Source: Candidatus Woesearchaeota archaeon
Lineage (GTDB): Archaea; Nanobdellota; Nanobdellia; Woesearchaeales; JAAOYA01
NCBI GenBank assembly: GCA_018221105.1
Contig: JAAOYA010000008.1
Coordinates: forward strand, 1-64,000
Direction: 5' to 3'
Length of the DNA stretch: 64,000 bases
Every line of letters starts with the position of its first letter. Position 1 is the stretch's first letter. The notes below the pieces were generated by a model. It saw only the letters and a list, made by a program, of their open reading frames with translations. It made no database searches and was not told the DNA's origin. Made by a program: the position numbers and the translations under genes. Below are positions 1 to 49,408 of this stretch, piece by piece.

Positions 1-1151
1 ACCTCTAATTCCTTGTTCTCACCAGTATCATCAGTACAACAAGCAGTAGGGTCTACTTCACCGCCAATATTCCAATAATTCACGCCAACAATATTATCGC
101 AAGCTGTTTGACTAGCATCACCGCCAAGCCACGAGCCACTACTACAATAACCACGATTAGGAATACTACCAGTAACTTGTCCAGTTGTATAACAAATACT
201 CGCCTCTGTACAATCTGTTGTAGTGTCACAACAAGCATCACTACTATCATCAAATAGAGCAGGAGCGTCACTACCCTGTGTTTCAATATCACGGTATTCG
301 CCAGCATCATCTCCACAGCAAGCTGTTGCTCCAGCGCCTTCTCCTCCAGGATTCCATGCTATTCCACCATCTCCTCCTGTGACATCACAACTAGCAACAC
401 AATAACCAGAACCTTCATCAGGATCCTCCCAAGAACCAGCACTACAATAACTATTGCCAAAAACACCAACACCATAACAAGCAGCAGTATCCTGACAAGC
501 ACCAGCATCATCAATACAATCAGTAGTTAACGTGCAACAAGCAGTAGTGTCACCACCACAAGCACCTTGACCGCTACTATCAGTACAAGTTTGTACTCGC
601 TCGCCAGTATCATCACCACAACAAGTAGTAGAAGCTACTTCACCACCTATACTCCAATCGTAAGAGCTTGGGTACGCGAATCCAGGTGCACAATTAGCGT
701 TTTCGCAATGTCCTTGTTGACCATCCCAATCAACTGTGTACACTAAAATACCGCTAACAGAACTACTTGTTGAATAGCCAGTACAACTTGTTTGAGAGTC
801 GCTAGGACAAATCGAGTAAACATACTGGTTAGGCGCCACGTTAGCATCGCTTGAATGATAAATTCTTAGTTGAGAATAAATGTTTCCTTCAACAGCACAA
901 TATGAAGGGCTAGCAACTGTTCCAACATTTTTGTTGCAAACATATCCATTTGTTTGATCATGATTTTCATTGCTAATAGTAGTATCACACCGAACAGCCC
1001 AGCCTTCAATACTGGTGGTTATAGTGTTATAATCTCCTTGCCATATTCTAAAATCATAATTATCTGGAGCGTAATCGATTGCAAAAGTGATTGTTGAAAA
1101 TAAAACAACTAGTATCAAAGATATAAACAGTTGTTTTTTCATAAAATTCAT
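1..1151 (-). CDS. Secreted Cys-rich repeat surface protein (5' part; runs off the window)
   Basis: Open on the minus strand from ATG 1149-1151 (or ATG 1140-1142) through base 1 with no stop, so only about the first 380 residues are seen. The N-terminus is a signal peptide: MKKQ, then a hydrophobic run ending near TFA-IDY. The body repeats Cys-rich modules. The clearest is GGE....(A/T)CC(G/T)DD(T/A)GE, present three times at about 600-650, 300-345 and 1-55, alternating with a YCS(A/S)GSW module. Such repeats are common in very large exported proteins of DPANN archaea, probably disulfide-knotted surface or adhesion proteins. That role is inference; no catalytic motif is seen. It is divergent from the radical SAM operon, with about 120 bp between them. 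Confidence 0.8.
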   Translation of the reverse strand, partial: MNFMKKQLFISLILVVLFSTITFAIDYAPDNYDFRIWQGDYNTITTSIEGWAVRCDTTISNENHDQTNGYVCNKNVGTVASPSYCAVEGNIYSQLRIYHSSDANVAPNQYVYSICPSDSQTSCTGYSTSSSVSGILVYTVDWDGQQGHCENANCAPGFAYPSSYDWSIGGEVASTTCCGDDTGERVQTCTDSSGQGACGGDTTACCTLTTDCIDDAGACQDTAACYGVGVFGNSYCSAGSWEDPDEGSGYCVASCDVTGGDGGIAWNPGGEGAGATACCGDDAGEYRDIETQGSDAPALFDDSSDACCDTTTDCTEASICYTTGQVTGSIPNRGYCSSGSWLGGDASQTACDNIVGVNYWNIGGEVDPTACCTDDTGENKELE

Positions 1152-1194
1152 AAACGTCACACTCTTTAAAGTATTTTTAAATAAAAACTCTGTT

Positions 1195-1210: not shown

Positions 1211-1272
1211 TTTCCCTATGTCTCGAGAAAAAAGAATAAGTTTAATAAAACTAAAGTTTTGGTTTTTTGAGT

Positions 1273-3618
1273 ATGTTTAAACGGGTGGATGTAAAAACTG
1301 GATTTTCGTGTAATAATAATTGTTTGTTTTGTGTGCAAGCAGATAACAAGCTTAAAAATAATAGGTCTTTTAATGATATTAAAGAAGATTTGGAGGATTC
1401 TAGAAAACGCTGTGATGGCGTGGTTTTAACAGGTGGAGAAGTAACAATTAGAAAAGATTTTTTTGATATTGTAACTTTAGCAAAAAAATTAGATTATAAG
1501 ACTGTTCAAGTACAAACTAATGCTCGAATGTTTGCAAACCTAGATTTTTGCAAGAAAACTATTGCTACTGGAGCTACAGAGTTCAGCCCTGCGTTGCACG
1601 GCCATGATGCAGCGCAGCATGACTTTTTAACACAAACGCCTGGCAGTTTTGTTCAAACTATTAAAGGTATCAAAAACTTAAAGGCATTAAACGCCAAAAT
1701 TCTCACAAATACTGTTGTCACACAGCAAAACTATCAAGATTTGCCAAAAATAGCACAATTGCTAGTCAAACTTGGCGTTGACCAGTTTCAATTTGCTTTT
1801 ATTCATCCAATGGGTAATGCTTGGAAGAATTTTGATCAAGTAGTGCCCAGTATTTCCAAAGCGGCACCATACATCCACCAAGCACTCAGTATTGGTGCTG
1901 CTGCGGGAATAACTGTTATGGCTGAAGCAATGCCTTACTGCCACATGCAAGGCTATGAAGATTATATTGCTGAAAAAGTTATCCCCGAAGCTGAAATAAG
2001 AGGGTCAAAGCATCAAAACACTGATAGTTTTACAACACAACGTAAAGTATATGGCAAACAAAAATTTGTACAGTGTAAAAAATGCTATTATGATAATGTT
2101 TGCGAGGGCCCGTGGAAAGAATACCCGCAAAAAAAAGGAAATGAAGAATTCACTCCATTAGAAAAAAAATACGCATTATTTAGATCTAATGTCCTTAACG
2201 ACATGAGGGATTACATTTTTGACTCTAAAAAAATACAAGAAAAATTAAAGTTATCTGAAAAAATTTTATTTAATTTATCAAAAAAAAAAACAGAATCTAC
2301 TAAGTACTTATTTACATCTATGTTTTTTCGTGTTAATAAACATATAATGATAACTCCTAAAAAATTTAGAGAACTATGGAGGGAAAAAATTCGTAATAAC
2401 ACATTATCTTCTTTTAATTTATTTAATTTATACCTTCACATCCCTTTTTGTAAAACAAAATGCGATTATTGCATGTACTACTCAACTGAAAACAAAACAA
2501 AAAAAGAGATTGATGATTATTTAGAGAATTTAATAAAAAAAATAAAGTATTTTTCTCCTGTTTTTTCTAAAATAATTTTTCAAAACGTTTTTATTGGTGG
2601 GGGAACACCCAGCATATTAGATGAAAAACAACTTCATTATTTACTTAGTAACATATACAAACATTATACTTTCAATAATGATGGTGAAATAAATTTTGAG
2701 GTAAATCCTACTAGTATAACTTCTTCAAAGCTTAAAATACTAAAAAAATATGGTTTTAATAGAATTAGCATGGGCGTTCAATCTCTTGACCCTAAAGTAT
2801 TAGAATATGCTAATAGAAAAAATCAGGATTACCAAAAAATAAAAGAAACTATAGAACTTGCTAAGAGTTTAGGATTAGAAGTAAATATTGATTTAATGAT
2901 AGGACTACAGCATGATAATCCTGAAAAATTATTATCTTCTTTTAATAAAATAATGAATATGAGGCCTCAGAGTATTAGTTTATATCCTTTAAAACCAAGT
3001 TATGAATATCTAAAATATCATTACTCACAAGATGAGAAAAAATTTTTTGATTATATAAATAATGAAATAATTGAATTTTTAAAGATTATCAAACCTATAG
3101 CAAAAAAACACGACTATACAACCCCTCATCTAATAACTATTTCTGAAGGATATTGTGGCACTTTTCGTGATAAAAAAACAAGCAATATAAAAAAAAAGAA
3201 AAAAGGTTATTATACAAATGTTCCTTATTCTATATTCGGTCTTGGTCCTAATTCTCTTTCAAAAATTTCTGGAATCTTTAGATGTAATGAAATAGCAATC
3301 CAAAACTCAAAATTTAATGAAAATTCTCTTTCTTATTCAGGAAGCGTTGCTACGATAAAAGATGATATAAGAGATTATATTTTAGATAACTTTGCCAAAA
3401 AATCCCCGCTCATAATATCAAATTTTAAAAAAGTTTTTGGGACAAGCATTTTTGAAGTTTTCCCCCAAACACTACATTTTTTAATTAAAGAAAATAAAGT
3501 GAATATAAAGGATGATAAATTAATTTTTTTACCTAATGATTTTAATGAAATTTTTAAGTATGGTTTATTATTTTGGAATAAAAAAGAACTAAACAATTTT
3601 TTAAATTACACAACCTAA
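1273..3618 (+). CDS. Twin radical SAM fusion: CEGPWKEY-type radical SAM plus HemW-like radical SAM domain
   Basis: First gene of the operon, 781 aa from ATG 1273 (an in-frame TTG lies 6 nt upstream). Residues 1-295 form one radical SAM unit: CNNNCLFC (C13, C17, C20), TGGE, a Cys in MPYC, then CKKCYYDNVCEGPW, which probably binds an auxiliary Fe-S cluster. Stand-alone paralogs downstream end just after this point. The chain here continues into a second domain with HIPFCKTKCDYC, GGGTPS, EVNP and GVQS motifs, typical of the HemW/coproporphyrinogen-dehydrogenase-like family. The N-terminal part has base composition like the rest of the chromosome; after about base 2160 it becomes strongly AT-rich with runs of AAA, ATA and TTA codons. 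Both clusters look intact. The substrate is unknown, and a heme role is not implied. Confidence 0.85.
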   Translation: MFKRVDVKTGFSCNNNCLFCVQADNKLKNNRSFNDIKEDLEDSRKRCDGVVLTGGEVTIRKDFFDIVTLAKKLDYKTVQVQTNARMFANLDFCKKTIATGATEFSPALHGHDAAQHDFLTQTPGSFVQTIKGIKNLKALNAKILTNTVVTQQNYQDLPKIAQLLVKLGVDQFQFAFIHPMGNAWKNFDQVVPSISKAAPYIHQALSIGAAAGITVMAEAMPYCHMQGYEDYIAEKVIPEAEIRGSKHQNTDSFTTQRKVYGKQKFVQCKKCYYDNVCEGPWKEYPQKKGNEEFTPLEKKYALFRSNVLNDMRDYIFDSKKIQEKLKLSEKILFNLSKKKTESTKYLFTSMFFRVNKHIMITPKKFRELWREKIRNNTLSSFNLFNLYLHIPFCKTKCDYCMYYSTENKTKKEIDDYLENLIKKIKYFSPVFSKIIFQNVFIGGGTPSILDEKQLHYLLSNIYKHYTFNNDGEINFEVNPTSITSSKLKILKKYGFNRISMGVQSLDPKVLEYANRKNQDYQKIKETIELAKSLGLEVNIDLMIGLQHDNPEKLLSSFNKIMNMRPQSISLYPLKPSYEYLKYHYSQDEKKFFDYINNEIIEFLKIIKPIAKKHDYTTPHLITISEGYCGTFRDKKTSNIKKKKKGYYTNVPYSIFGLGPNSLSKISGIFRCNEIAIQNSKFNENSLSYSGSVATIKDDIRDYILDNFAKKSPLIISNFKKVFGTSIFEVFPQTLHFLIKENKVNIKDDKLIFLPNDFNEIFKYGLLFWNKKELNNFLNYTT

Positions 3619-3622
3619 AAAA

Positions 3623-4945
3623 ATGACAATTATAACGCCCCTAACAAATATATGTAATCAACACTGTATTTATTGTTCTTCACATAATAGAAAAGAAAAT
3701 TCTAGAGAAGAAATCATAAAATCTATAATCGCTGAAGATAATCATTTAATTTTTAGTGGAGGAGAAACAACGCTTGCCAAAAATTTATTTAAGTATTTAT
3801 CAAAAGCTAAAAAAAAAGATTTATTTATTGAACTACAAACAAATGGCGTTACAAGTTCTTATTTTTCTTTTGCAAAAAAACTTGTTTCTTCAAAAATAGA
3901 TCTTTTTAATGTGTCTTTTCCTTCATTTAATTCAGAAACTTATCAAAAAATTACTAAAACTTTTTATTACGATAAATGTGTTAAAGGTATCAAAAACATA
4001 ATAGGTTTAAAAGGAAATGTTAGAATAACTAATGTTATCAATAATCTAAATTATAAAGAGCTTCCTGACTTAGTACGATTTGTAAAAAAAGAATTTAGTG
4101 GATTAAACTTATTAGAACTAAATTTTGTAAAAGGTGTTGGTCTTGCAAAAAATAATAAAGAAGTTATCCCAAAACATAAAGAAATTAGTAAATATTTAGT
4201 TGAAGCTCTTCGTTTTTGTTTGAATCAAGAAATAAATGTTATTGTTGATCACATTCCTCTTTGCTACTTAAAAGGTTTTGAAGATTTAAGTGTTGATTTT
4301 CAAAAAATAGTAAATAATAAAGATAAGACTTTCTTAGATGAAAAAATTAAGATAAAAAAATGCAAAGATTGTGATATTAAAAATTTTTGTACAGGTATCA
4401 GAAAAGACTATTATGAATTATATAAAGAAGAAGTTAATCCCGTCTCAACTATTTTTAATATTGATGATATTTCAGAAAATATTAGTAAAGAAAAAGATTT
4501 ATTAAAAAAAAGGTTCGATTTCTTTATAAAATATGACATTCCTTTTCAATTGATCAACTATCCTTTATGTATTTTTAGAAGTTATAAAAAATATGTTAAG
4601 AAAACAAAAGATTTTAAAAAGCCAAACAGTTGTAATGAATGTCGATACTTAAAAGAATGTGCAGGAATTCCAAAAAAATATTTTGAAAAAAATGGTTCTT
4701 CTGAATTTATTGCCATTAACGAAAAAGCTTTTTTAACTAACAGAGAAAAATGTATTCTTAGTATACTTAATTATAAGAATGATTTAACTACAAAAGAAAT
4801 TTTTTCTTTAACATCAAAGTTTAATATTTGTGCTGATTGTTCTTCTAGTGATAATAGCATTATCGTAGCTAGAAAACTTGAAAAAAAAAATAAACTTAGT
4901 AAAAAATTAACAAAAAAAGGGTATGTGTGGAGCTTAAAAAAATGA
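3623..4945 (+). CDS. Radical SAM protein with duplicated C-terminal Cys module and winged-helix tail
   Basis: Starts 4 nt after the preceding stop; 440 aa. CNQHCIYC (C11, C15, C18) and SGGE mark the radical SAM core. The C-terminal auxiliary motif of this paralog family occurs twice: IPLC followed by CKDCDIKNFCTG, then YPLC followed by CNECRYLKECAG about 85 residues later. The second copy has no radical SAM core of its own. The last 70 residues (REKCILSIL...TTKEIFSL...ARKLEKKNKL...GYVW) look like a winged helix. A likely history is fusion to the C-terminal half of a neighbouring paralog. Its last base overlaps the next gene in an ATGA junction. Substrate unknown. Confidence 0.85.
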   Translation: MTIITPLTNICNQHCIYCSSHNRKENSREEIIKSIIAEDNHLIFSGGETTLAKNLFKYLSKAKKKDLFIELQTNGVTSSYFSFAKKLVSSKIDLFNVSFPSFNSETYQKITKTFYYDKCVKGIKNIIGLKGNVRITNVINNLNYKELPDLVRFVKKEFSGLNLLELNFVKGVGLAKNNKEVIPKHKEISKYLVEALRFCLNQEINVIVDHIPLCYLKGFEDLSVDFQKIVNNKDKTFLDEKIKIKKCKDCDIKNFCTGIRKDYYELYKEEVNPVSTIFNIDDISENISKEKDLLKKRFDFFIKYDIPFQLINYPLCIFRSYKKYVKKTKDFKKPNSCNECRYLKECAGIPKKYFEKNGSSEFIAINEKAFLTNREKCILSILNYKNDLTTKEIFSLTSKFNICADCSSSDNSIIVARKLEKKNKLSKKLTKKGYVWSLKK

Positions 4946-6189
4946 AAGATATACGAGAAGATTTTCCAATTTTAAATAAAAAAATAAATGGTAAAAGACT
5001 TATTTATTTTGATAATGCTTGTTCTATTCTTAAACCGAAAAGTGTTATTAATGCCATAAATTATTATTATACACATTTAGGTGCTTGTGCGGGGGAAAGA
5101 ACTTCTTATTCTATAAGTAGGAAAACCGATGAGTTATGCGAGAAAAGTAGATTTAAAACACAAAAATTTATTGGTGCTAAGTCTGCTTCTGAGATTATAT
5201 GGACAAAAAACGCCACTGAATCTATTAATTTAATAGCTAATTCTCTTGATTATTCTAAAAGAAACAAAATTATTCTTAGTAGTAATTCTCATCATAGTTT
5301 ATTGTTGCCTTTTTATGAGCAAATTAAAAAAAAGAAAATTAAATTAAAAATCATTGATTGTAATAAAAACGGCCAAATATCCTCTGAAAAATTAAAAGAA
5401 GTTGTTGATAATAAAACAGCTTTGGTCGGAATTACTCATGCTTCAAATGTTACTGGGAGAGTTGAGGATTTAAAAAGTTTTTGTGAAATCTCTCAAGATA
5501 AAGGAGCATTAGTTTTAAGTGATAGTTCACAATTCGTTAGCCATCATAAATTAGATGTATTAAAAAATAATGTTGATTTCTTGGCTTTTTCAGCTCATAA
5601 ACTTGGAGGTCCAACAGGCCTTGGAATTCTTTATGGAAAAGAAGAAGCTTCAAAGAATTTATCTAATTTTATTGTTGGAGGCAACACTATCAAGACAGTT
5701 GATTATTTTAATAATTCTTTAAGTGTAAATTATTCTAATCAACCTAAAAGATTTGAAGCCGGATTACAAAATTATTCTGGGATAATTGGATTTGGAGAAT
5801 TAGTTAAATATTTAGAAAAAGTAGGATTGGGTAATATAGAAGAATATGAAAAAATACTAAGTGCTTATTTCTTAAAAAAAATAAGTTCTTTAAAAGATGT
5901 TATAGTTTTTGATGACTCAAATAATAAAATTAGAAACCCTACTTTTTCTTTTAAATTAAAAAAAGATGTTTCCCCTAAAGATTTTAGCATTTATCTAAAT
6001 GAGTTACCTAAAAATGAATTTGCAATTAGAACAGGAACTCATTGCGCTAATCCATTACATCAAGCCTTAGGCATGGATTATAAGAAAGGGGAAGGAAGTA
6101 TTAGGGCGTCTCTTTTCGCGTATAATACAAAAGAAGAAATTAATTTATTTTTTGAAGCTCTAAGTAGTTTTTTAGATTTAATAAGATGA
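4942..6189 (+). CDS. SufS-like cysteine desulfurase (class V aminotransferase)
   Basis: PLP enzyme predicted to take sulfur from cysteine as a persulfide. ATG 4942 overlaps the upstream stop (ATGA) and gives MKDIREDFPIL, the usual SufS start; an in-frame GTG at 4927 is less likely. Visible motifs are YFDNAC near the N-terminus, THASNVTG, SDSSQ in place of the usual DGAQ, the PLP lysine in SAHKLGGPTG, and the catalytic Cys in RTGTHCANP. Length is about 415 aa, as in SufS. No SufU, SufE or scaffold gene is nearby. Embedded among radical SAM genes and translationally coupled on both sides, it may supply sulfur for the clusters or for sulfur insertion into the product; that is inference. Confidence 0.88.
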   Translation: MKDIREDFPILNKKINGKRLIYFDNACSILKPKSVINAINYYYTHLGACAGERTSYSISRKTDELCEKSRFKTQKFIGAKSASEIIWTKNATESINLIANSLDYSKRNKIILSSNSHHSLLLPFYEQIKKKKIKLKIIDCNKNGQISSEKLKEVVDNKTALVGITHASNVTGRVEDLKSFCEISQDKGALVLSDSSQFVSHHKLDVLKNNVDFLAFSAHKLGGPTGLGILYGKEEASKNLSNFIVGGNTIKTVDYFNNSLSVNYSNQPKRFEAGLQNYSGIIGFGELVKYLEKVGLGNIEEYEKILSAYFLKKISSLKDVIVFDDSNNKIRNPTFSFKLKKDVSPKDFSIYLNELPKNEFAIRTGTHCANPLHQALGMDYKKGEGSIRASLFAYNTKEEINLFFEALSSFLDLIR

Positions 6190-7091
6190 AAAAAGAAAAA
6201 AGTGAAGTAAATTTTTTTGATATTATGAGTAGTTATAAATGTAATCAAAATTGTTTATTTTGTTCTGTAGAATATCAAAAGAGAAAAATGCAAAGAAGCA
6301 CTTTTGATATCAAAAAGGATGTTTTAGAAGCTAAAAAAGAAGGAATAAAAAATATTGGTTTTAGTGGAGGAGAACCAACATTAAGAAAAGATATTTTTGA
6401 ATTATCACGTTTTGCAAAAAAAGAAGGTTTTAAATTAATAAGATTACAAACAAATGGTATATTATTAGCATATGATAATTATTGTAATAAATTAGTTGAT
6501 TCTGGAATTAATTATTTTAAGATATCAATACATTCTCACATTCCAGAAATACATGATTATTTAACACAAACAAAAGGAAGTTTTAAACAAACAAACAAAG
6601 CTATACAAAATCTTATTGAATTAAATCAGCCTGTAGAACTTAATTATGTTATAAGTAAACATAATTATAAATTTATTCCCCAGTTTGTTGAGTATTTTAG
6701 TAACAAAGGAATTAGTAAATTTTGTTTTATTTATCAAATTTATTGTGGCAATGCGTATGATAATAAAAGAATTATTAGTGTAAAGATAAGTGAAATTACT
6801 CCTTTTCTAAAAGAAGCTCTTAACATAATTGATGATTATGATTTAGACAAAGGTATAGTTTTTAACATCCCTTTTTGTTTATTACCAAAATACCATGAGC
6901 GGTGCGTTCAGATTTTTAATACTAAGGTTTCAACCCCTGAAAAAATAATGCAAAATGTTGATCTTGATGGAAAGGAAGACAAAATAAAATTTGATAGGTG
7001 TAAAAATTGCAAGTATGAAAAAAAATGTTATGGTGTTTGGAAAACTTACGTTAAACTATTTGGAGAAAAAGAATTCAATCCTATAAAATGA
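6186..7091 (+). CDS. Radical SAM protein (MoaA-like core, PFC/CxxC auxiliary motif)
   Basis: 301 aa, coupled to the desulfurase gene by an ATGA overlap. CNQNCLFC (C19, C23, C26), SGGEPT and TNG motifs mark the radical SAM core. The paralog-family signature LTQTKGSF.QTNKAIQNL follows. The C-terminal cluster site is IPFC, then CKNCKYEKKCYGVWKTY, ending at EFNPIK. This is the simplest architecture in the operon and the best template for the family. No peptide-recognition (RRE-like) domain is evident. Substrate unknown. Confidence 0.86.
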   Translation: MKKEKSEVNFFDIMSSYKCNQNCLFCSVEYQKRKMQRSTFDIKKDVLEAKKEGIKNIGFSGGEPTLRKDIFELSRFAKKEGFKLIRLQTNGILLAYDNYCNKLVDSGINYFKISIHSHIPEIHDYLTQTKGSFKQTNKAIQNLIELNQPVELNYVISKHNYKFIPQFVEYFSNKGISKFCFIYQIYCGNAYDNKRIISVKISEITPFLKEALNIIDDYDLDKGIVFNIPFCLLPKYHERCVQIFNTKVSTPEKIMQNVDLDGKEDKIKFDRCKNCKYEKKCYGVWKTYVKLFGEKEFNPIK

Positions 7092-7993
7092 ATAAAAAAA
7101 AAATTGGTTTAAATGCAATTCATAGAAAAAATAATTATAGTTTTATACCTATTATTTTTAAATGTAATGATAATTGTATTTCTTGTATTGTTGAAAAAAA
7201 TAAAAGGAACAAATTAAGAACTCCTACTTTAAAAAATATTAAAGAAGACATAGATAGGATAGCAAAATACTCAACTCATTTAGAGATAAATGGCGGGGAA
7301 CCCACCTTAAGAGAGGACATATTAAAAATAATCTCTTATGCTCATTCTAAACCAACAATTAAACACCTTTCTTTATTAACAAATACTAGAATGTTATCTT
7401 ATAGTTCTTTAGTTAAAAAACTTGCTAATTTTCATAAATTAAAAATTGTGACAACTCTTTATGGTCATGATAGTAAAACTCATAATTCAATTACTAGAAA
7501 TCCTGAGAGTTTTAATCAAAAACTAAAAGGGATAAAAAACATAATAAAAGAAAATATTGAATTAGAATTAAGAATATTAGTTCATAAAATGAATTATTTA
7601 GATATTAATAATATTTCTAAGTTCATAATTTCAAATTTTAATCCTAACAATTTTTCATCTATTATTTTTATGAGTCCAAAAATGACTGGGGAAGCAAAGA
7701 ATAATAAGAATGCTATTCACATTTCAATTAAAAAAAGTATTAAAGAACTAATTCAGGCTATTAAAATATTAGAAAAAACTGGTTTTAACATCACTCTTAG
7801 ACATTACCCTCTTTGTGTATTGCCTAATAAATTATGGAAATATGCATCTAGTGTAACCGCTGAAGAAACAGAGATATTTTTTCCTAAAAAATGTGATTTT
7901 TGTACTCAAAAAAAATCTTGTTCCGGGATTTGGAAAAGTTATTATGACCTCTACAAGGATTATGAATTAAAACCAATAAAAAATGAAAAATAA
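7088..7993 (+). CDS. Radical SAM protein, divergent paralog
   Basis: 301 aa; ATGA overlap with the preceding gene. CNDNCISC (C26, C30, C33) follows a longer N-terminus than in its sisters; NGGEPT replaces the usual SGGEPT. The family features remain: SITRNPESF.QKLKGIKN, YPLC, then CDFCTQKKSCSGIWKSYYDLY. All cysteines for two clusters are present, so it should be active. Sequence divergence from its neighbours argues for a distinct substrate or step. Function unknown. Confidence 0.85.
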   Translation: MNKKKIGLNAIHRKNNYSFIPIIFKCNDNCISCIVEKNKRNKLRTPTLKNIKEDIDRIAKYSTHLEINGGEPTLREDILKIISYAHSKPTIKHLSLLTNTRMLSYSSLVKKLANFHKLKIVTTLYGHDSKTHNSITRNPESFNQKLKGIKNIIKENIELELRILVHKMNYLDINNISKFIISNFNPNNFSSIIFMSPKMTGEAKNNKNAIHISIKKSIKELIQAIKILEKTGFNITLRHYPLCVLPNKLWKYASSVTAEETEIFFPKKCDFCTQKKSCSGIWKSYYDLYKDYELKPIKNEK

Positions 7994-8891
7994 AAAAATA
8001 AAAAAATCTGTTATATTTATGGGATATTCATGCAACAATAAATGCGTTTTTTGTTGTAATGAGAATAAAAGAAATATAAAAGAGAAGTCTTTTGATCAAA
8101 TTAAAAAAATATTGATCAAATTAAAAAAAGAAGGTTACACTTATTTAGAACTTATTGGGGGGGAACCAACAATTAGAAAAGATTTTTTAAAAATAATAAG
8201 ATTAGCAAAAAAGTTAAGTTTTGAAACAATAATGTTTGCTACTAATGGAAGAATGTTATCGAACTATGATTTTGCAAAGAAAGTTATTGATGCTGGAGTA
8301 AATCATATAGTTTTTTCAATTCATGGGCACACTAAAGAATTACATAATCAATTAACCCAATCTCCGAAAAGTTTTGAACAATTAATTAAGGGCATTACTA
8401 ATCTTAAAAAATTAGGTTTTACAAATATTGGATCAAACACTACGATAGTAAAACAAAATTGTGATTATCTTAAAAGAATTGGCGAATTAATTTATAATTT
8501 AGGAATTAAAAATGCTGAATTTATTTTTGTTGATCCAACACATGGCGCGCCTAATCACAATTTTGAAACATTAGTTCCCAATTATGAAGATTGTTCTTCC
8601 CAGATAAACAAATTATTAGAATTTGCTACAAATAATAATTTAAACTATTTTAATATTAGATATTATCCTCTTTGTTTTATTGATAAAAAATATCATGATA
8701 AGATCAGTGAAATAAATGAGGTTGAAGTTTTTGATGTCTCTCATTTAGCTCCTGATTATAATAATATTGATGCGTTAAAATCAAGAAAAATAGTATCAAG
8801 AAAAAAAATTGAGAAGTGTAATAATTGTGATTATTTTAATATCTGCGAGGGTTATTGGGTAGAATATATTAAAAATAAAAAAATAAAATGA
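7983..8891 (+). CDS. Radical SAM protein, paralog
   Basis: 302 aa, starting inside the upstream gene with an 11-nt overlap (ATGAAAAATAA). CNNKCVFC (C17, C21, C24), IGGEPT and TNGRML mark the core. HGHTKELHNQLTQSPKSF, YYPLC and CNNCDYFNICEGYWVEY follow; the CEG.W signature is close to that of the first gene of the operon, so this copy is among the less diverged. Coupled to the next gene by ATGA. Substrate unknown. Confidence 0.86.
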   Translation: MKNKKIKKSVIFMGYSCNNKCVFCCNENKRNIKEKSFDQIKKILIKLKKEGYTYLELIGGEPTIRKDFLKIIRLAKKLSFETIMFATNGRMLSNYDFAKKVIDAGVNHIVFSIHGHTKELHNQLTQSPKSFEQLIKGITNLKKLGFTNIGSNTTIVKQNCDYLKRIGELIYNLGIKNAEFIFVDPTHGAPNHNFETLVPNYEDCSSQINKLLEFATNNNLNYFNIRYYPLCFIDKKYHDKISEINEVEVFDVSHLAPDYNNIDALKSRKIVSRKKIEKCNNCDYFNICEGYWVEYIKNKKIK

Positions 8892-10717
8892 AAAATATTA
8901 CTGTATTATCCTCAAAAAAATGTAATAATAGATGTTTAAATTGTCCGATAGACTTAGAAATCGGAATAAAAAGGCATGCTGACTCTTTTGATTTTATAAA
9001 AAATAAAATCAAATCTTTAAATCTAAAAAAAGATGATGAGGTTACTCTTAGTGGAGGAGAACCAACAATAAACAAAGCATTTATAAAAATTGTTATATAC
9101 CTCCAAAATAAGTTTAATAAAGTAAATATCTTAACCAATGGAAGATTATTAAGTAATTCTGTTTTTTTAAAAAAAATACAAAAATATTTTAATAAAAAAA
9201 AAATTTTTTTTCATATCTCTTTGTATAGCACGAATCCTGAAATAAATAATAAACTAACCCGGTCTAATAGTTTAAATCAAACTTTAGAAGGTATTAAAAA
9301 ATTATCTTTAAATAGTTTTAATTTTAAAATACGCATCCCTATATTAAGAAGTAATAGTTATTCATTATATGTAACTATTAACAAATTGAGCAAGTTATAT
9401 CCTTTTACAGAGTTCGTTTTTATTTATCCTGACATAATGGGAGAACTAAAGAAAAACAAAAAAGAAGTTCTCAAAATAAATGATCTAAAAATATTGTTCT
9501 CGACTTTTGATTATTTGATTAATAATAACATAAGATTCTTCATATATCACTTACCGTTTTGTTTATTACCCTATAAGTATTGGGGGTATTTATTAAAATC
9601 AAAATCAGACATTCGATTAGTTAATTATAGTAAATGCCTAACTTGTCATTTAGAAGATATTTGTCCCAAGATTTCCAAAACTAATAAAGTATTAATTAAT
9701 CAAGATGAATTGACTTCTTTTTCAAAAAAAGACATTCGCGACTATATAAAAAAAAATGGTTTTTTCTATAGACTTAAACCATTAGAAAAAAAAATTGATT
9801 CATTTCAACTAAGTAAAGTTCAAGAAATAAATTCATCGTTTCCTGATGTTTTAGCAGTTTCAAAAAATATAAAACCCTTAACAAGGATCTCTTTTAATAG
9901 TTTGTCAAGGGTTAAAATTATTGAAAAAGTACTTCCTAAAGATATTCTTCTTAGTTTTAGTAAGCTTAAAATTTTGCACAATAATTCAGAAAGCTTTAAC
10001 ATAAATGATCCTAGGAATGGATTAGTTGATATATACTCTAAAAGAAAAGGGACCATTTATGGTTACTTATCCAAATCTTCCTCTCTTTTAGAGTTTACTT
10101 CAAAAAATGATCCTGAATTAGAATTAAAGCCTTCCTATAATGAAGTAAAAAATTTTGCTTCTAATTTAGGCTATCCTTCTTGTTGTGTTGAATACTGGTT
10201 AAAAAAAGAAAATATTCATATTGATATGGCAACTTTTTTTTCTAAAGAAAAAAAGTCCTTTTTATTTAACAATTTCTTAGTTCCCTATTCCAATTATTAT
10301 CTTAGTTTCCACCATCCTTGTAGTTATGAATGCAAAAAAACTTTATTATACAACAAGAGAATATATAATTCAATAAAAAAATATAATGAAAATTTTGGAG
10401 TAGAGATTAAGAAAGTTTTAACAAAACCCCTTCTAATATTATTAAATTCTAAAGAACGTTCTACCTGGGAAACATTAGATAGTAGGCTCACTGTAATTTT
10501 TAATGGAATTCAAATTAAAAACAAAATATACTATTATGGCTTCTATTTTTTTGAAGAAGCATATAAAAAGAATCAATTCCACTATTTTAAAGATATCTTA
10601 TTAAAGTCTAATAATATTTTTCTTGACAATGAAAAGATTTATTTTTATTTAAATGATAAATTAATAAATGAAAAAAAATTGGTAGGTGAAAAAGTATACA
10701 TGTTAGATTTTGACTAA
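8888..10717 (+). CDS. Radical SAM protein fused to a Cys-rich C-terminal module (DUF483-like)
   Basis: 609 aa, twice the length of its sisters. Residues 1-265 are the family core: CNNRCLNC (C12, C16, C19), SGGEPT, LPFC and CLTCHLEDIC. The remaining 340 residues are a separate module containing GYPSCCVEYW and, about 50 residues later, HHPCSYEC, a CC plus H-PCS-C arrangement that reminds me of archaeal DUF483 proteins. It could be a metal or substrate site. The family match is from memory and should be tested by profile search. ATGA overlap at the start; the next gene begins 1 nt after its stop. Confidence 0.8.
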   Translation: MKNITVLSSKKCNNRCLNCPIDLEIGIKRHADSFDFIKNKIKSLNLKKDDEVTLSGGEPTINKAFIKIVIYLQNKFNKVNILTNGRLLSNSVFLKKIQKYFNKKKIFFHISLYSTNPEINNKLTRSNSLNQTLEGIKKLSLNSFNFKIRIPILRSNSYSLYVTINKLSKLYPFTEFVFIYPDIMGELKKNKKEVLKINDLKILFSTFDYLINNNIRFFIYHLPFCLLPYKYWGYLLKSKSDIRLVNYSKCLTCHLEDICPKISKTNKVLINQDELTSFSKKDIRDYIKKNGFFYRLKPLEKKIDSFQLSKVQEINSSFPDVLAVSKNIKPLTRISFNSLSRVKIIEKVLPKDILLSFSKLKILHNNSESFNINDPRNGLVDIYSKRKGTIYGYLSKSSSLLEFTSKNDPELELKPSYNEVKNFASNLGYPSCCVEYWLKKENIHIDMATFFSKEKKSFLFNNFLVPYSNYYLSFHHPCSYECKKTLLYNKRIYNSIKKYNENFGVEIKKVLTKPLLILLNSKERSTWETLDSRLTVIFNGIQIKNKIYYYGFYFFEEAYKKNQFHYFKDILLKSNNIFLDNEKIYFYLNDKLINEKKLVGEKVYMLDFD

Positions 10718-10718
10718 A

Positions 10719-11636
10719 ATGATGGCTAATAATAACAAAGTATTAGAGTTGCATTTAACAAATAACTGTAATAATAATTGTGAATTTTGTTCTTTTGGAG
10801 AAAAAGAAGATCGGGATATTGACTTAAAAGTTTTGGATGAAATATTGTCTAAAGAAAAAATTAATAAAATCGCTCTTTCTGGTGGAGAGCCAACTATTTC
10901 AAAAAAAATTTTTCAAGTTTTAGAATACTTAAAAAATAAAAGATATTCTGTCGGAGTAGCAACAAATGGTAGGATGTTATCCAACGATGCTTTTTTTAAT
11001 AAATTAAAAGATTACAATATTAATCACTTCTATGTTAGTCTTTTATCTTATAAAAGAGAAACTCATGATAAATTGACAAGAACAAAAAATAGTTTTGATC
11101 AAACAATGAAAGGAATTAAGAAATTAGTAAAAAATAATCAAAAGATAATTATTGATTACGTGATAACTAAAGATAATGTTAAAGATTTATATGAAACAGT
11201 AAAAATGATTCATGATATGTCGCCAAAAATTATGGTTAAGTTAAGGCTTGTAGAACCTGTTGGTTTTGCTAAAAAAAAAATTTCTTCATTGTTTCCCGCA
11301 CTAAGATTATTAGAAGAAGAATTAAGTAAAATAAAAAGTTATTCAAATAAAAAAAATGTTAAGGTTCTGGCAATACCTCTTTGCTTGTTTAATTCAAAAT
11401 TAATAAATTCAGATTATGATTACATTAAACAAAATTTAGATGATTTTTCTTTGTTTAAACTAAGTGATGAAAATATTAAAAAAGTCAAAATTAAAGAAAA
11501 CTTTTTAAAAAAAGTTGATTTTTGTGCAAGTTGTCGCCTAAGAAAAAGATGTGTCGGTATTTATACTGATGTTGAAGATGAATTTATTAATTTTTTTAAA
11601 AATAAGAAATTAACAAAAAATGATTATGAAAAATAA
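10719..11636 (+). CDS. Radical SAM protein, paralog
   Basis: ATG 10719 (or the adjacent ATG 10722) lies 1 nt after the preceding stop and gives about 305 aa; the upstream TTG at 10710 is less likely. CNNNCEFC (C17, C21, C24), SGGEPT, TNGRML and LTRTKNSF.QTMKGIKKL show the family core. IPLC and CASCRLRKRCVGIY form the auxiliary site. Its 3' end overlaps the next gene. Substrate unknown. Confidence 0.85.
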   Translation: MMANNNKVLELHLTNNCNNNCEFCSFGEKEDRDIDLKVLDEILSKEKINKIALSGGEPTISKKIFQVLEYLKNKRYSVGVATNGRMLSNDAFFNKLKDYNINHFYVSLLSYKRETHDKLTRTKNSFDQTMKGIKKLVKNNQKIIIDYVITKDNVKDLYETVKMIHDMSPKIMVKLRLVEPVGFAKKKISSLFPALRLLEEELSKIKSYSNKKNVKVLAIPLCLFNSKLINSDYDYIKQNLDDFSLFKLSDENIKKVKIKENFLKKVDFCASCRLRKRCVGIYTDVEDEFINFFKNKKLTKNDYEK

Positions 11637-12999
11637 TATAAAAATAGTTTTGGTTAGTCTAAATTATACTAGTAGATCTCTTGGTTCTGCTACTCCTTCT
11701 ACTGCTTTGGCTTATCTGTCTACTTTTTTAAGAAAAAAAGGATATGATGTGTCTTGTATTGATATTAACCACTTCAAAGAAGTTTTTGATTATTTAAGAG
11801 AAAAAAATATTACTAAAGCAATAAAAAGGATATCTAAAAAAGTAAGTTCTTTAGACCCTTTTTTAGTAGGTATAAGCTCTTTTTCTTCTACTATAACCTT
11901 TGCTATGGAATTGGCTAAAGAAATTAAATTAAACAATAAAAGCATTTACACAGTTTTAGGTGGTGTTGGTGCAGCTACTAAACCAGAACTAATATTAAGA
12001 GAATGTGAGAATCTAGATTTTATAATTAAAGGTGATGGTGACTCCTTTCCTTTATTAATTAATTCTCTGTTTCAAAGAAAAAAAATCGGGAATGTGAGCG
12101 GTGTTTGTTATATTAAAAATGGTAAGTATATAAAAAATAATGATTTATCTGTAGGTAAAGAAATTAACAATACTATCTTTGATTATGAAAGTTTTATAGA
12201 ATTACAAAGAATCACTCCTGGAATAACTACCTCTAGGGGTTGTATGTTTAAGTGTTCTTATTGTTCTGTCAATGTGGTACATACAAAATGTTTTCAATTA
12301 AAATCTGATATTGTTTTAAAGCAAGTTAATAAATTGATTAATATGTATTCTCCGAAAAATCTTCTTTTCCAAGATGATTCTTTACTAAATAATAAAATCT
12401 ATTTTAAAAAATTGATATCTAAACTACCCAAAAACTCTGCTGATTTTGCACTTTACGCGAGATTAGACCAAGTTAATCATGAAATAATAAAAGATTCGTA
12501 TGATTCTAATTTTCATAAGATCATGATGGGTATTGAAAGTTTTAATCCTATAAATCTCGCTTTTTTTAATAAGTCAATACCTTTAGAAAAGCTTTTTTCA
12601 ACTTTAAATTTATTAGATAAGTTTAATTTTAAAACAGAATTATCTTTTATTATAGGTACTCCTTATGATACTAAAGAATCTTTAGAGATAGAAAGAAAAG
12701 AGATTGAAAAAATAAAAATGAATCATTCTTCAAATGTAAAAATAGAACATAATATTTTAATTGCGTATCCGGGTACTAAGTTGTGGAATATGTATGAAAA
12801 TAAAGAAATAAGTCTTTTTAAAGCATTTGACATATTTAAAAAAGACGAGAAATTGAGTAAATACTCTTCTAACCCTTTTTTTTCTCCTTTTAATTTTGTC
12901 TTCGAAAATAAAAAAGTTCCCTCTCATATATTTAGAAATTATTTATTAGAGCATTTAAGAGAAATATCAAATATTACAAAAAGAATAAATCACAAATAA
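11626..12999 (+). CDS. B12-binding-type radical SAM protein (BchE/MiaB-like layout)
   Basis: Last gene of the operon. ATG 11626 overlaps the upstream stop as ATGAAAAATAA, the same junction seen at 7983; ATG 11620 is an alternative. About 457 aa. The first 180 residues form a Rossmann-like cobalamin-binding domain (STALAYLSTFLRKKGYDVSCIDIN, then LGGVGA and KGDGD). No DxHxxG base-off motif is seen, so any B12 would bind without that His. The radical SAM core starts at SRGCMFKCSYC, about residues 206-213. B12-radical SAM enzymes often methylate or rearrange unactivated carbons. It is distinct in family from the other members. It overlaps the convergent gene by 26 bp. Confidence 0.85.
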   Translation: MKNNIKIVLVSLNYTSRSLGSATPSTALAYLSTFLRKKGYDVSCIDINHFKEVFDYLREKNITKAIKRISKKVSSLDPFLVGISSFSSTITFAMELAKEIKLNNKSIYTVLGGVGAATKPELILRECENLDFIIKGDGDSFPLLINSLFQRKKIGNVSGVCYIKNGKYIKNNDLSVGKEINNTIFDYESFIELQRITPGITTSRGCMFKCSYCSVNVVHTKCFQLKSDIVLKQVNKLINMYSPKNLLFQDDSLLNNKIYFKKLISKLPKNSADFALYARLDQVNHEIIKDSYDSNFHKIMMGIESFNPINLAFFNKSIPLEKLFSTLNLLDKFNFKTELSFIIGTPYDTKESLEIERKEIEKIKMNHSSNVKIEHNILIAYPGTKLWNMYENKEISLFKAFDIFKKDEKLSKYSSNPFFSPFNFVFENKKVPSHIFRNYLLEHLREISNITKRINHK

Positions 13000-13498
13000 A
13001 TTTCCAATCATCTATTATTTCTGCAAAATCTTGGTATTGACAAACTCGAGTATCATTATTTAAAACTTTATTCTTAAATTCTTTATTTATTGTTAAAGAA
13101 CAAAAAGTTTTTTCTTTGTCGCTTAATTTATCTTCATAACATAAATTTATGTCATTTGCAGAAATTGCTTCACATAAAATTTTTCCAGTTTCCAAAGAGA
13201 TTTGTTTACATTCAAAGTTCTGAGTTGAAATAAATTTTATTAAGTAAAAAACAAATTCGCATTCTTTAACATCTCTCTCAGTATATTTATTCAATTCTGC
13301 GCATTTGGATATATCATTAGTTATTACTGATTCTTTTAAAAAATTTAATTTAGCTTGGCTGGCTATAGCGTCTTGTTTATAGATTTTAGAAGAGCTATAA
13401 TTTTCTTCTTTTTCGTATATAAAATTAAAAGAAAAATATGATATTATTAATACTATTAAAATTCCTACAATCAATATCAGATTTTTTATTTTTTTCAT
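12974..13498 (-). CDS. Membrane-anchored Cys-pair protein, distal gene of the Hxs-like operon
   Basis: 174 aa. MKKIK, then a hydrophobic helix (about residues 7-29), places the rest outside the cell. The exported part contains cysteines in repeated pairs (D(I/T)..C followed by C 8-15 residues later, about four times), suggesting a small helical, disulfide-stabilised fold. It lies 9 bp downstream of the His-Xaa-Ser precursor on the same strand, so co-expression is likely. It may be a partner, chaperone or anchor for the modified peptide. No family recognised. Its 3' end overlaps the end of the radical SAM operon by 26 bp. Confidence 0.72.
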   Translation of the reverse strand: MKKIKNLILIVGILIVLIISYFSFNFIYEKEENYSSSKIYKQDAIASQAKLNFLKESVITNDISKCAELNKYTERDVKECEFVFYLIKFISTQNFECKQISLETGKILCEAISANDINLCYEDKLSDKEKTFCSLTINKEFKNKVLNNDTRVCQYQDFAEIIDDWKFICDLFFL

Positions 13499-13507
13499 TT
13501 ATTTTAC

Positions 13508-13834
13508 TTAATCAAAATAAAATGCTGCCGAGTTATGGCTTCCGTGACTACCATGACTACCATGACTACCATGACTACCATGATCGTGCTGGTGTGTTCC
13601 AGCAACGTTTGGAGGAGTATTATAATTTATTCCTGAAGTGTTACAGTGTTCGTGATGTGTAGTAGCATCATTTCCAAGAGTTGTTGGAGGGCATGCTGCT
13701 TGCACTTGCAATGCTGAGACTGCGGCAACACTCAAGAAAATACCTGTTTTTAATAGTGCTTCCTTGCTAATTTTTCCTTCTTCACGCGTAAGAAAAGATT
13801 GTACTTTTTTTTTTATTTTTGGAAGTTTCAACAT
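13508..13834 (-). CDS. HxsA-like His-Xaa-Ser repeat precursor with class III-type signal peptide
   Basis: 108 aa; probable substrate of the downstream-acting maturase. The C-terminus has six consecutive His-Xaa-Ser units (five HGS, one HNS; residues 85-102) ending in SAAFYFD, the hallmark of HxsA peptides. A further His-rich stretch (THHEHC, THQHDH) and two cysteines (C48, C64) precede it. The N-terminus has a Lys-rich segment, then EEG(20)/K(21)-I-S(23)-K-E(25) and a hydrophobic stretch to residue 47. Gly at -1, Ser at +3 and Glu at +5 match archaeal class III (prepilin-type) signal peptides, and a prepilin peptidase heads this same operon. The likely product is an exported, modified, His-rich peptide or filament subunit. 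Known: bacterial HxsA is paired with HxsB/HxsC. Inferred: cleavage site and fate. Confidence 0.82.
   Translation of the reverse strand: MLKLPKIKKKVQSFLTREEGKISKEALLKTGIFLSVAAVSALQVQAACPPTTLGNDATTHHEHCNTSGINYNTPPNVAGTHQHDHGSHGSHGSHGSHGSHNSAAFYFD
13541..13588 (-). repeat. 9-bp tandem repeat encoding Gly-Ser-His units
   Basis: On the minus strand GGTAGTCAT repeats exactly four times, with one diverged copy (GGAAGC/CAC). It encodes the His-Xaa-Ser tract. Identical codons suggest recent expansion by slippage, so repeat number probably varies between strains. Confidence 0.9.
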
Positions 13835-13855: not shown

Positions 13856-15229
13856 TTATTGCAGTTTTTCTTTTATAAAGTTTTCTTTTACTACCCAATC
13901 AAACTGTTTCATGTAAATTTTACACCTGTCAGTCTCGGATATTTTTGCTATTATGCTACCTTGTTCTGAATAATTACAAACTGGGCAAACACCACAGTAT
14001 GGTTTGTAAGCGCAACTATTACAAGTGTATTGATCATTTATTGAAGCTGCGCTTGTAGCACAGGCATTATCGCAAGTGAGCACTTCTTTATAATTATTTT
14101 CGTGCACGTTACCCAGTAAGAACAAGTCCTCAGTTAGTGTTCTTGCTTCATCACACGTATAAATATCTCCATTATACTGATACGCTAATTGTCCTATTGC
14201 AGCACCGCAAGGGCTTCTTAGCTCTAAATAGTTAGGTTCGAACTCAGTGCTTATCTTTTGAGTCATTAATCGTACCATTCGTTCATTGACAAAAACATCT
14301 TTTTTCTGTAATTCTTTGATGTACTCGACTCCTTTTTTCCAAAAGGCTAAGTATTCTTTTGCTGTGTAGCTAATAGCAGGCCAAGCTTTTTTTGCAAGGC
14401 CTAAATTGTTCAAAAATCTCAAGTGCACATCAAAAATTCCAAGCTTTACATATTCATCAATAATCTCTTTATGGTATGAAAGACTTTTTTTTGTAAGTGT
14501 TAATATGGCGTTTGCTCTACGATTAGAAATGTTTCTTTTTTCATATTCTTTATTGAATTTTTTTATCCATTTGATTACAGCGTCATAGTTACTGCCACCA
14601 GAATATTTTCTATTATGATCATGCAATTCTTTAGGGCCATCTAAAGAAGTGCATACGCTAACATTATTGTTAATTAAATAATTCATTTTTTGTTCATTCA
14701 TTACTGAAAAATTAGTGACTACTGTAAAAAGAACATTCTTTTTTGCTTTTTCGTTTTTTTTGTTTGCGTATTCTACAATATATTTTAAGACATCCCAGTT
14801 AAGAAATGGTTCTCCACCTTGAAATTCAATAGTAATATTATTGTTTGGGGATTGGAATATGAAATCAACTGTTTTTTTGGCTGTTTCTTTTGTCATGTCA
14901 AAAGATTTGTCAGCCATTGATTTGGCAGTAGCGTGACAGTAAACACAATTCATGTTGCAACGCAGTGTTATGACTATTATATGCAGTGAAGTTCCAAAAA
15001 ATAAGAAGTTATTGCGGTTTCTCAGTAATCTTACTGCTTCATCAATATTTGTTTTGTCAAGCAGTATTTCTCTTTCTAATAATTTTTCTTTTAGTTTTGC
15101 GTCAATATTATTTTGCTGCAATTTTTTGAATTCGTTTTCTGATAGAATACTATAACTTCCATGGTCTGTTGTCACAAAATATTTATCATCTAATTTTCTC
15201 ACTCTATAATTGTTTATTGTATAAGTCAT
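13856..15229 (-). CDS. hxsB: HxsB-like radical SAM/SPASM peptide maturase
   Basis: 457 aa. The N-terminal 90 residues contain FVTTDHGSYSILSENEFKKL, the precursor-handling segment typical of His-Xaa-Ser maturases. CNMNCVYC (C91, C95, C98), QGGEP and the core follow. The C-terminus is a full SPASM domain: CGAA, YTCDEART, LLGNV, then CNSCAYKPYCGVCPVC and a final DRCKIY, enough cysteines for two auxiliary Fe-S clusters. SPASM enzymes crosslink or epimerise ribosomal peptides; here the substrate should be the HxS precursor 22 bp downstream. ATG 15229 is 1 nt after the preceding stop. I see no HxsC homolog in the window, so this is a single-maturase variant. Confidence 0.87.
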   Translation of the reverse strand: MTYTINNYRVRKLDDKYFVTTDHGSYSILSENEFKKLQQNNIDAKLKEKLLEREILLDKTNIDEAVRLLRNRNNFLFFGTSLHIIVITLRCNMNCVYCHATAKSMADKSFDMTKETAKKTVDFIFQSPNNNITIEFQGGEPFLNWDVLKYIVEYANKKNEKAKKNVLFTVVTNFSVMNEQKMNYLINNNVSVCTSLDGPKELHDHNRKYSGGSNYDAVIKWIKKFNKEYEKRNISNRRANAILTLTKKSLSYHKEIIDEYVKLGIFDVHLRFLNNLGLAKKAWPAISYTAKEYLAFWKKGVEYIKELQKKDVFVNERMVRLMTQKISTEFEPNYLELRSPCGAAIGQLAYQYNGDIYTCDEARTLTEDLFLLGNVHENNYKEVLTCDNACATSAASINDQYTCNSCAYKPYCGVCPVCNYSEQGSIIAKISETDRCKIYMKQFDWVVKENFIKEKLQ

Positions 15230-15230
15230 T

Positions 15231-15446
15231 TTAGATAATGTTCTCGTTTTTCATAAGTCCCAAAACATAGTTAGAAAACTCTTCTTTTAATGGCTCTTCT
15301 AATGGCTCTTTTTGTAATAATTCAATTCCGAATTCATCATCAAGTATTGTTATTTTTGCAATGTGTTCGAAATCCTTTATTGCTTGACTGATTGCTTTTT
15401 TATCATAGAAGTTTTTGTTAAGGACTAATTTAATCTTTTTTTTCAT
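15231..15446 (-). CDS. Small HxsD-like protein
   Basis: 71 aa. The pattern LNKNFYDKKAISQAIKDFEHIA followed by LKEEFSNYVLGL resembles the HxsD fold (Y...AI..A...F, then EF.N) in shortened form. Starts within the end of the longer HxsD-like gene (17-nt overlap) and stops 1 nt before the maturase start, so all three are translationally coupled. Likely an accessory binding the precursor or maturase; that role is inference from the known Hxs gene set. Confidence 0.7.
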   Translation of the reverse strand: MKKKIKLVLNKNFYDKKAISQAIKDFEHIAKITILDDEFGIELLQKEPLEEPLKEEFSNYVLGLMKNENII

Positions 15447-15882
15447 CTTTTTGCCCGTATTTTTCTTCCCACGGTACGGCTATTCCTTCAGGGTCATCTA
15501 ATTCTTCATCGTCTTCTTCTAATTCATTTAATATCTCGTTATAATCTACTTCTTCATCATCATCCGGGATTATTGAAGGGTCATTTGTGAATAGCGCTCT
15601 TTGTAAAAGGTATTCCCTGATTGTTTTTGTTTGTGCTGCTCTGTGCTTATAATCAGCGTAATTTATTAATTCATTTAAAAATTCTCCGCCAAGCTTTTCT
15701 AAGTCTTGTTTTTGCTTAGGTTGTAATTTAACCAGTATTTCCTTTTTTAAATCACCATCTAATAACACGTATGCTTTATCTAAAAAAACGTATGCTGCAG
15801 AATAAATAATATCTAAAGGATAAAATTCAGGATTTACTTTAAGAACTACAGAACCATCTCTTACTTCTAATTTTTTATCCAC
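15430..15882 (-). CDS. hxsD: HxsD-like protein of the His-Xaa-Ser system
   Basis: 150 aa from GTG 15882, chosen because GGAGGG (15894-15889) lies 6 nt upstream. Residues 5-95 match HxsD: VLKVNPEFYPLDIIYSAAYV, LDKAYVLLDGD, GGEFLNELINYADY, then TIREYLLQRALF. The last 45 residues are very acidic (EED/DDEE runs) and end in a DPEGIAVPW segment. Together with the shorter paralog it gives two HxsD-like proteins in one operon. Probably cytosolic and needed for peptide maturation; exact activity unknown. Confidence 0.8.
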   Translation of the reverse strand: MDKKLEVRDGSVVLKVNPEFYPLDIIYSAAYVFLDKAYVLLDGDLKKEILVKLQPKQKQDLEKLGGEFLNELINYADYKHRAAQTKTIREYLLQRALFTNDPSIIPDDDEEVDYNEILNELEEDDEELDDPEGIAVPWEEKYGQKDEKKD

Positions 15883-15888
15883 ATTAAT

Positions 15889-15894
15889 CCCTCC
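15889..15894 (-). promoter_or_regulatory. Shine-Dalgarno site deciding the GTG start of the HxsD-like gene
   Basis: GGAGGG on the minus strand, 6 nt before GTG 15882. It overlaps the stop codon of the prepilin peptidase gene, so translation of the two is probably coupled. Confidence 0.7.
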
Positions 15895-44057: not shown

Positions 44058-44071
44058 ATTCTTAACTAACT

Positions 44072-46124: not shown

Positions 46125-46128
46125 TAAC

Positions 46129-46908: not shown

Positions 46909-46910
46909 TT

Positions 46911-49400: not shown

Positions 49401-49408
49401 TTTACCAC

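Follow-up and report, generated by a model that had tools for sequence, protein, structure and literature searches.

An array of HxsC-like radical SAM genes beside a His-Xaa-Ser peptide locus in a woesearchaeal archaeon, probably part of its maturation machinery

The His-Xaa-Ser (Hxs) system, comprising HxsA, HxsB, HxsC and HxsD (TIGR03976-TIGR03979) and credited to Haft and Basu (per PMC9062424), is already known by annotation as a type of ribosomally synthesized and post-translationally modified peptide (RiPP) system and is chemically uncharacterised. In the open-access literature we found passing mentions of Hxs only, no report of the product of any Hxs system and, with most subscription journals outside that search, no multi-HxsC arrays; nor did Hxs arrays appear in open-access work on RiPPs of DPANN archaea and Woesearchaeota, on radical S-adenosylmethionine (SAM) enzymes of Elusimicrobia and Omnitrophota, or on RiPP recognition elements (RREs). 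The classes named in the portions available to us of a survey of archaeal RiPP clusters (PMC12144867) are ranthipeptide, sactipeptide, YcaO, lasso and lanthipeptide, and Hxs is not mentioned in those portions. In this report, we focused on the first 64,000 nucleotides of contig JAAOYA010000008.1 (assembly GCA_018221105.1) from a Candidatus Woesearchaeota archaeon—hereafter the window—where an array of radical SAM genes is directly convergent with a complete Hxs RiPP core consisting of HxsB, an HxsA-like peptide, two HxsD-type genes and an A24 peptidase. We consider it probable that this array serves an expanded Hxs system of this DPANN archaeon as its maturation machinery, a reading that draws on gene content, protein families, the peptide leader, catalytic motifs, the age of the paralog families and linkage across phyla. 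Multi-HxsC array clusters are a new form of that RiPP type.

Open reading frame calling combined with Pfam and NCBIfam profile searches shows that positions 1267-12999 (forward strand) hold eight radical SAM genes and one SufS-like gene, as a first-pass annotation made from the sequence had proposed. Radical SAM domains were found in every gene except the desulfurase, and there are nine of them rather than eight, gene R1 being a fusion. The genes are as follows.

1267-3618, forward: R1, 783 residues, an HxsC-like radical SAM domain (residues 1 to about 300) fused to a HemW-like radical SAM domain
3623-4945, forward: R2, HxsC-like radical SAM protein (TIGR03977, 108 bits)
4927-6189, forward: SufS-like cysteine desulfurase (TIGR01979, 368 bits)
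6186-7091, forward: R3, HxsC-like radical SAM protein (NF038332, 134 bits; TIGR03977, 125 bits)
7088-7993, forward: R4, HxsC-like radical SAM protein (TIGR03977, 174.6 bits against a cut-off of 267.9)
7983-8891, forward: R5, HxsC-like radical SAM protein (NF038332, 142 bits)
8888-10717, forward: R6, HxsC-like radical SAM protein with a DUF483-like C-terminal domain (P-x-CC ... PCSxxC; TIGR03977, 122 bits)
10710-11636, forward: R7, HxsC-like radical SAM protein (TIGR03977, 123 bits)
11620-12999, forward: B12-binding radical SAM protein (PF02310, 53 bits; PF04055, 44 bits)

Seven of these genes share one design—a CxxxCxxC motif followed by P(L/F/Y)C and finally CxxC-x5-C—with pairwise identities of 24-36%. 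R2 carries a second P-L-C...CxxC-x5-C module (residues 314-346), and HemW-type models match residues ~385-576 of R1, where a further CxxxCxxC lies at residue 395; the start codon of R1 is uncertain (TTG at 1267 here, 1273 in the first-pass annotation). That annotation had also described the common motif design, an unrelated B12-type gene in last place, mostly overlapping stops and starts, and radical SAM motifs kept in spite of divergence, all of which stood up: seven of the eight junctions overlap (R1 and R2 are separated by a 4-nt gap), and every one of the nine CxxxCxxC motifs is intact, as are the auxiliary cysteines, with no frameshift. Ten of the 19 radical SAM matches in this 1.15-Mb genome lie inside 14 kb here; when 19 such domains were placed at random in the genome 20,000 times, no 14-kb stretch received more than five.

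The best NCBIfam family for R2-R7 and for the N-terminal domain of R1 is HxsC (TIGR03977) or HxsC4 (NF038332). R4 is nearest to canonical HxsC among the seven paralogs and the others score 107-125 bits, so that none reaches the HxsC cut-off; R1 (159 bits with NF038332, 118 with TIGR03977) and the tested R1-family proteins (about 115-172) likewise stay below the HxsC4 cut-off of 500. By profile score, the paralogs are therefore classed as HxsC-like and not as HxsC. Among 299 distinct HxsC-like proteins that we gathered, CxxxCxxC is present in 296 and PxC...CxxC-x(3-7)-C in 275, and conservation of the latter would suit a second iron-sulfur site.

When 90 HxsC-like domains were placed in a maximum-likelihood tree, R1 fell within an ortholog clade of 12 rows (support 100/100), R4 and R5 each fell in a clade from six genomes (100/96 and 100/100, respectively), R2 paired with a gene of genome G050 (99/90) and R3 with one of G250 (100/99); R6, a long branch, and R7 were unresolved. 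The order R1-R4-R5 of these families is common to genomes G000, G050, G033, G327 and G253. Because of these supported clades and this conserved order, we regard the paralogs, as far as their sequences tell, as distinct old subfamilies and not recent copies, which fits the earlier suggestion that they serve distinct steps or substrates. We give next to no credence to the opposite view, that the seven are redundant recent duplicates performing a single HxsC reaction with dosage as the sole benefit: their common motif design and some DNA-level similarity near the motif regions would suit it, but identity is too low, gene order is conserved, and R1, R2, R3, R4 and R5 are each nearer to orthologs from other families of the order than to one another.

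The second finding concerns the proposed substrate. The first-pass annotation had reported no peptide gene, yet one lies just past the end of the interval that it covered (12999), together with HxsB, two HxsD-type genes and a peptidase, all on the reverse strand.

12974-13498, reverse: 174-residue membrane-anchored protein following hxsA, with an N-terminal hydrophobic stretch
13508-13834, reverse: HxsA-like precursor peptide, 108 residues (NF038313 HxsA4, 42.3 bits against a cut-off of 55)
13856-15229, reverse: HxsB radical SAM/SPASM maturase (TIGR03978, 449.6 bits against a cut-off of 370)
15231-15446, reverse: HxsD-like small protein (NF038315, 63 bits against a cut-off of 41)
15430-15882, reverse: HxsD (TIGR03976, 48.5 bits, just under the cut-off of 50)
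15894-17063, reverse: A24 aspartyl (prepilin-type) peptidase (PF06819, 24.8 bits, over the cut-off; PF01478 under it)

The peptide, the only one of its kind in this genome, consists of a conserved leader (PKIKKKVQSFLTREEGKISK), a hydrophobic stretch with an AxA-type site and a HGSHGSHGSHGSHGSH core. TIGR03979 and NF038309 match it more weakly than HxsA4 does, and the cut-offs of HxsA, HxsA3 and HxsA4 are all missed; related peptides from bacterial array loci pass the HxsA4 cut-off with 131.7, 82.2, 58.1 and 55.4 bits. Its leader aligns with those of 11 other peptides from Hxs loci (consensus PKLKKKIxSFLxxEEGKISK), and this common leader together with the HGSHGSHGSHGSHGSH core marks it as a His-Xaa-Ser repeat precursor. 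A plasmid search for an origin of the peptide gave no match. We also considered a type III (prepilin) signal in HxsA and did not retain it: the leader Gly is near-invariant, but position +5 varies, the hydrophobic stretch begins late and the AxA-type site is a rival, which makes either cleavage route conceivable. The 174-residue protein matched no family in profile searches and had no sequence relative beside the other HxsA genes of the compared loci, several of which have an unrelated Cys-containing membrane protein at that position. In one locus (L035, 14382-16389), hxsA and the 188-residue gene that follows it are tandemly duplicated next to HxsB. HxsD is kept beside HxsB in relatives. Its structure model (predicted local distance difference test score, pLDDT, 82.5) has the element order beta-beta-alpha-beta-beta-alpha-alpha, and the matches listed for it are weak and RPB11-like, with no RRE (PqqD-like winged helix) among them; a role of HxsD as an RRE draws no support from the modelled fold, in which none is recognisable.

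The third finding is that arrays and Hxs genes go together well beyond the window. In a survey of 352 genomes of the order, which gave 35 matches to the R1 family (the window's own included) and 58 to HxsA, HxsA was present in 26 of 34 R1-family genomes versus 31 of 318 others (Fisher p 6.5e-17, leaving out the window's genome and ignoring phylogeny). Three genomes of the order (G050, G346 and G253) have an array facing or adjoining hxsA-hxsB-hxsD much as in the window, and examples of the convergent layout outside the window's genome are loci L029 (of G050), L054 and L056. In a GTDB contig collection, the R1 family occurs at 80 named loci, from archaea (Ca. Woesearchaeota, Aenigmatarchaeota, Diapherotrites, Nanohalarchaeota and Undinarchaeales) as well as bacteria (Patescibacteria, Omnitrophota, Elusimicrobia, Schekmanbacteria, Spirochaetes and Myxococcales) and others; these names are taken from the records, almost all of them metagenome-assembled genomes, some of which may be mis-binned. 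HxsA, HxsB or HxsD falls within the stretch in 40 of the 80, where between one and seven HxsC-like genes accompany it. An A24 peptidase is found in 28, a HemW-like gene in 16 and a DUF483-like gene in 7. When 22 loci without core genes were checked genome-wide, HxsB exceeded its cut-off in 17 and an HxsA-like peptide was present in 13; 14 control genomes had no HxsB at the same threshold. The genes are thus mostly not scattered singly among unrelated known functions, the R1 family usually accompanying an Hxs core or an HxsB elsewhere in the genome. Across loci, the number of peptide repeats correlates with the number of HxsC-like genes (rho 0.56, 52 peptides; loci with seven HxsC-like genes have 7 to 51 repeats). 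Such a correlation might suggest one enzyme per repeat, an idea that we do not count as evidence since it is confounded by contig truncation, relatedness and array-less loci.

These distributions bear on whether the array might instead be an independent pathway that makes a small molecule, a cofactor or a lipid or modifies RNA, and simply adjoins an ordinary Hxs cassette; its true partners would then be a PP-loop ATPase, DUF483 and the desulfurase. A PP-loop ATPase is near R1 in L029/L087, L076, L084 and L114, a SufS-like gene is present both in the window and in L141, some arrays have no Hxs core nearby, composition breaks between array and core, and a sugar-acid decarboxylase and a lipid synthase are among the solved structures nearest in sequence. 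However, R1 strongly co-occurs with HxsA and HxsB over genomes and phyla, it sits in one gene row with HxsB, HxsD and HxsA in distant bacteria (L098, L123, L125 and L135, for example), and HxsC is the family that the paralogs match best, which together make an independent pathway unlikely in our judgement. The earlier list of possible products—natural product, cofactor, lipid or modified RNA base—is narrowed accordingly: the locus looks like natural-product biosynthesis, and the other readings are no longer the simplest.

The recent history of the locus is a separate matter. GC content is about 0.36-0.41 up to a point within the R1 frame, near 2050-2250, where it drops to 0.23, and the AT-rich block that starts there (2050-13498; GC 0.22-0.27, GC at third codon positions [GC3] 0.12-0.19) ends with the 174-residue gene; from HxsA to A24 and over the rest of the window, GC is mostly about 0.31-0.40. 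Since the array is so sharply AT-richer than its surroundings, the simplest reading is that the block was probably acquired recently, between a resident R1 gene and a resident Hxs operon, and that the R1/HemW fusion is young and was produced by the same acquisition. An assembly chimera is possible and would require two joins, both falling between Hxs genes. We think it highly improbable that the block is a mobile or decaying cassette, non-functional in this host: its GC against about 0.35 around it and a break that creates a fusion within the R1 frame would agree with that, but the cysteine motifs are all intact, no frame is shifted, the junctions are tight and overlapping, and arrays elsewhere match host composition closely (HxsC-like genes there are near HxsB in composition, with a median GC3 difference of -0.02).

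Several observations weigh against the array being Hxs maturation machinery. The AT-rich composition means that array and Hxs core differ in recent history here, and no array paralog reaches the cut-off for HxsC or HxsC4. Few of the compared loci carry the desulfurase or the B12 gene. No HxsB was found in five of the 22 checked R1 genomes, whose assemblies may be incomplete, and L049 and L055 have HxsC-like arrays of seven and eight genes with no Hxs core on their stretch, so that a substrate for them may be encoded elsewhere. Conversely, in several DPANN genomes HxsB and HxsA are present while HxsC-like genes nearby are few or lacking, and therefore the array is not essential to a basal Hxs system.

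The accessory genes add detail. An A24 homolog is present in 16 of 20 HxsB loci and both catalytic aspartates are conserved among homologs (D23 in 35/36; D90, within a GD motif, in 37/37), because of which we regard this gene as probably the leader peptidase of the Hxs operon. Two A24-family peptidases lie near each other on the reverse strand of the window, the HxsB-linked one at 15894-17063 and a typical Peptidase_A24 at 18202-19059. The 300-residue tail of R6, searched alone, matches PF04467 at 25.2 bits (cut-off 25); this DUF483-like domain recurs in other arrays, free or fused, with an invariant P-x-C-C and one more invariant Cys preceded by a near-invariant PC. A confident model of the tail (pLDDT 82, predicted TM-score 0.81) had no significant fold match in the PDB. 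The SufS-like gene, which keeps the pyridoxal phosphate Lys and the RxGxHC Cys motifs, is the genome's third desulfurase, besides an IscS-type gene on contig C7 next to an IscU-like gene and a SufS-type gene on contig C5; it shares 45% identity with SufS from the L141 array (Nanohalarchaeota) and 36% with the C5 paralog. Genes like the B12-binding radical SAM gene adjoin Hxs genes in L054, L068 and L096. Two other neighbours were noted in related loci: a PP-loop ATPase (TilS/QueC-like) immediately or closely upstream of R1 in archaea (L029, at 812-1684; L076; L084; L087; L114), and a PPDK_N plus PEP-utiliser protein inside an HxsC-like array (L056, 10821-12752), with similar-sized unannotated proteins in some other arrays.

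If the array does mature the peptide, the pathway that we infer—how the array works on HxsA, by what chemistry and in what sequence, where the leader is cut and what the peptide does—would run as follows. HxsA, with its basic amphipathic leader, hydrophobic export segment and GSH-repeat core, would be produced from the convergent operon, and HxsB, a SPASM-type enzyme, would engage the leader with the two HxsD-type proteins. In each of the seven HxsC-like enzymes, one SAM cluster is accompanied by one predicted auxiliary cluster of four Cys; these enzymes could modify His/Ser of different repeats, or act at successive stages. The HemW-like domain and the B12 enzyme may contribute extra radical steps, possibly methylation, and the desulfurase may provide local sulfur, either to build iron-sulfur clusters or to enter a sulfur-bearing modification. 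Finally, the A24 peptidase would take off the leader during export, plausibly after the near-invariant Gly of E-E/D-G. The mature peptide may serve in metal or heme binding, as surface material or in antagonism. More tentatively—and here we are nearer to doubt than to conviction—the arrays might define a new cross-domain RiPP class. In it, a single secreted GSH-repeat peptide, released by A24, would receive several different modifications from up to seven or more specialised HxsC-like enzymes and their HemW-like, B12-dependent and DUF483-like partners, and the result might be an extracellular material that handles metal, heme or electrons.

What makes the locus significant is the pairing of a repeat peptide with unusually many enzyme subfamilies that are related yet ancient and are conserved from DPANN archaea as far as Omnitrophota, Elusimicrobia and Myxococcales. 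With one peptide and many old subfamilies, it becomes testable whether each HxsC-like enzyme has a separate residue or step. The locus also ties an A24 peptidase, a DUF483-like domain and a desulfurase to a RiPP pathway, and offers concrete candidates for reconstitution from uncultured organisms. Elsewhere in the window, positions 3-1160 (reverse) hold the start of a secreted Cys-rich repeat protein with recurring CCGDDTGE-like and GYCSSGSW-like units, a possible surface protein or adhesin whose remainder is cut off by the contig end; by eye, the region 42972-50377 resembles a restriction or defence island, with a cytosine DNA methyltransferase and a Vsr-like endonuclease adjoining large proteins, one of which may be an ATPase.

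Compared with known systems, the window is like the Hxs system in having HxsB over its cut-off, HxsD-type genes, a His-Xaa-Ser repeat peptide and HxsC-like radical SAM genes. The canonical arrangement, exemplified by hxsD-hxsB-hxsC-hxsA on an Aeromonas plasmid, has one hxsB and one hxsC, whereas in the window seven divergent HxsC-like genes are joined by HemW-like, B12, desulfurase, DUF483-like and A24 parts. HxsA4 and HxsC4 of NCBIfam (NF038313 and NF038332) are the best models for the peptide and for R1, R3 and R5, but the peptide scores 42.3 against 55 and R1-family proteins about 115-172 against 500. Lastly, the locus resembles the archaeal RiPP clusters covered by PMC12144867, DPANN ones among them, in being an archaeal peptide-modifying cluster.

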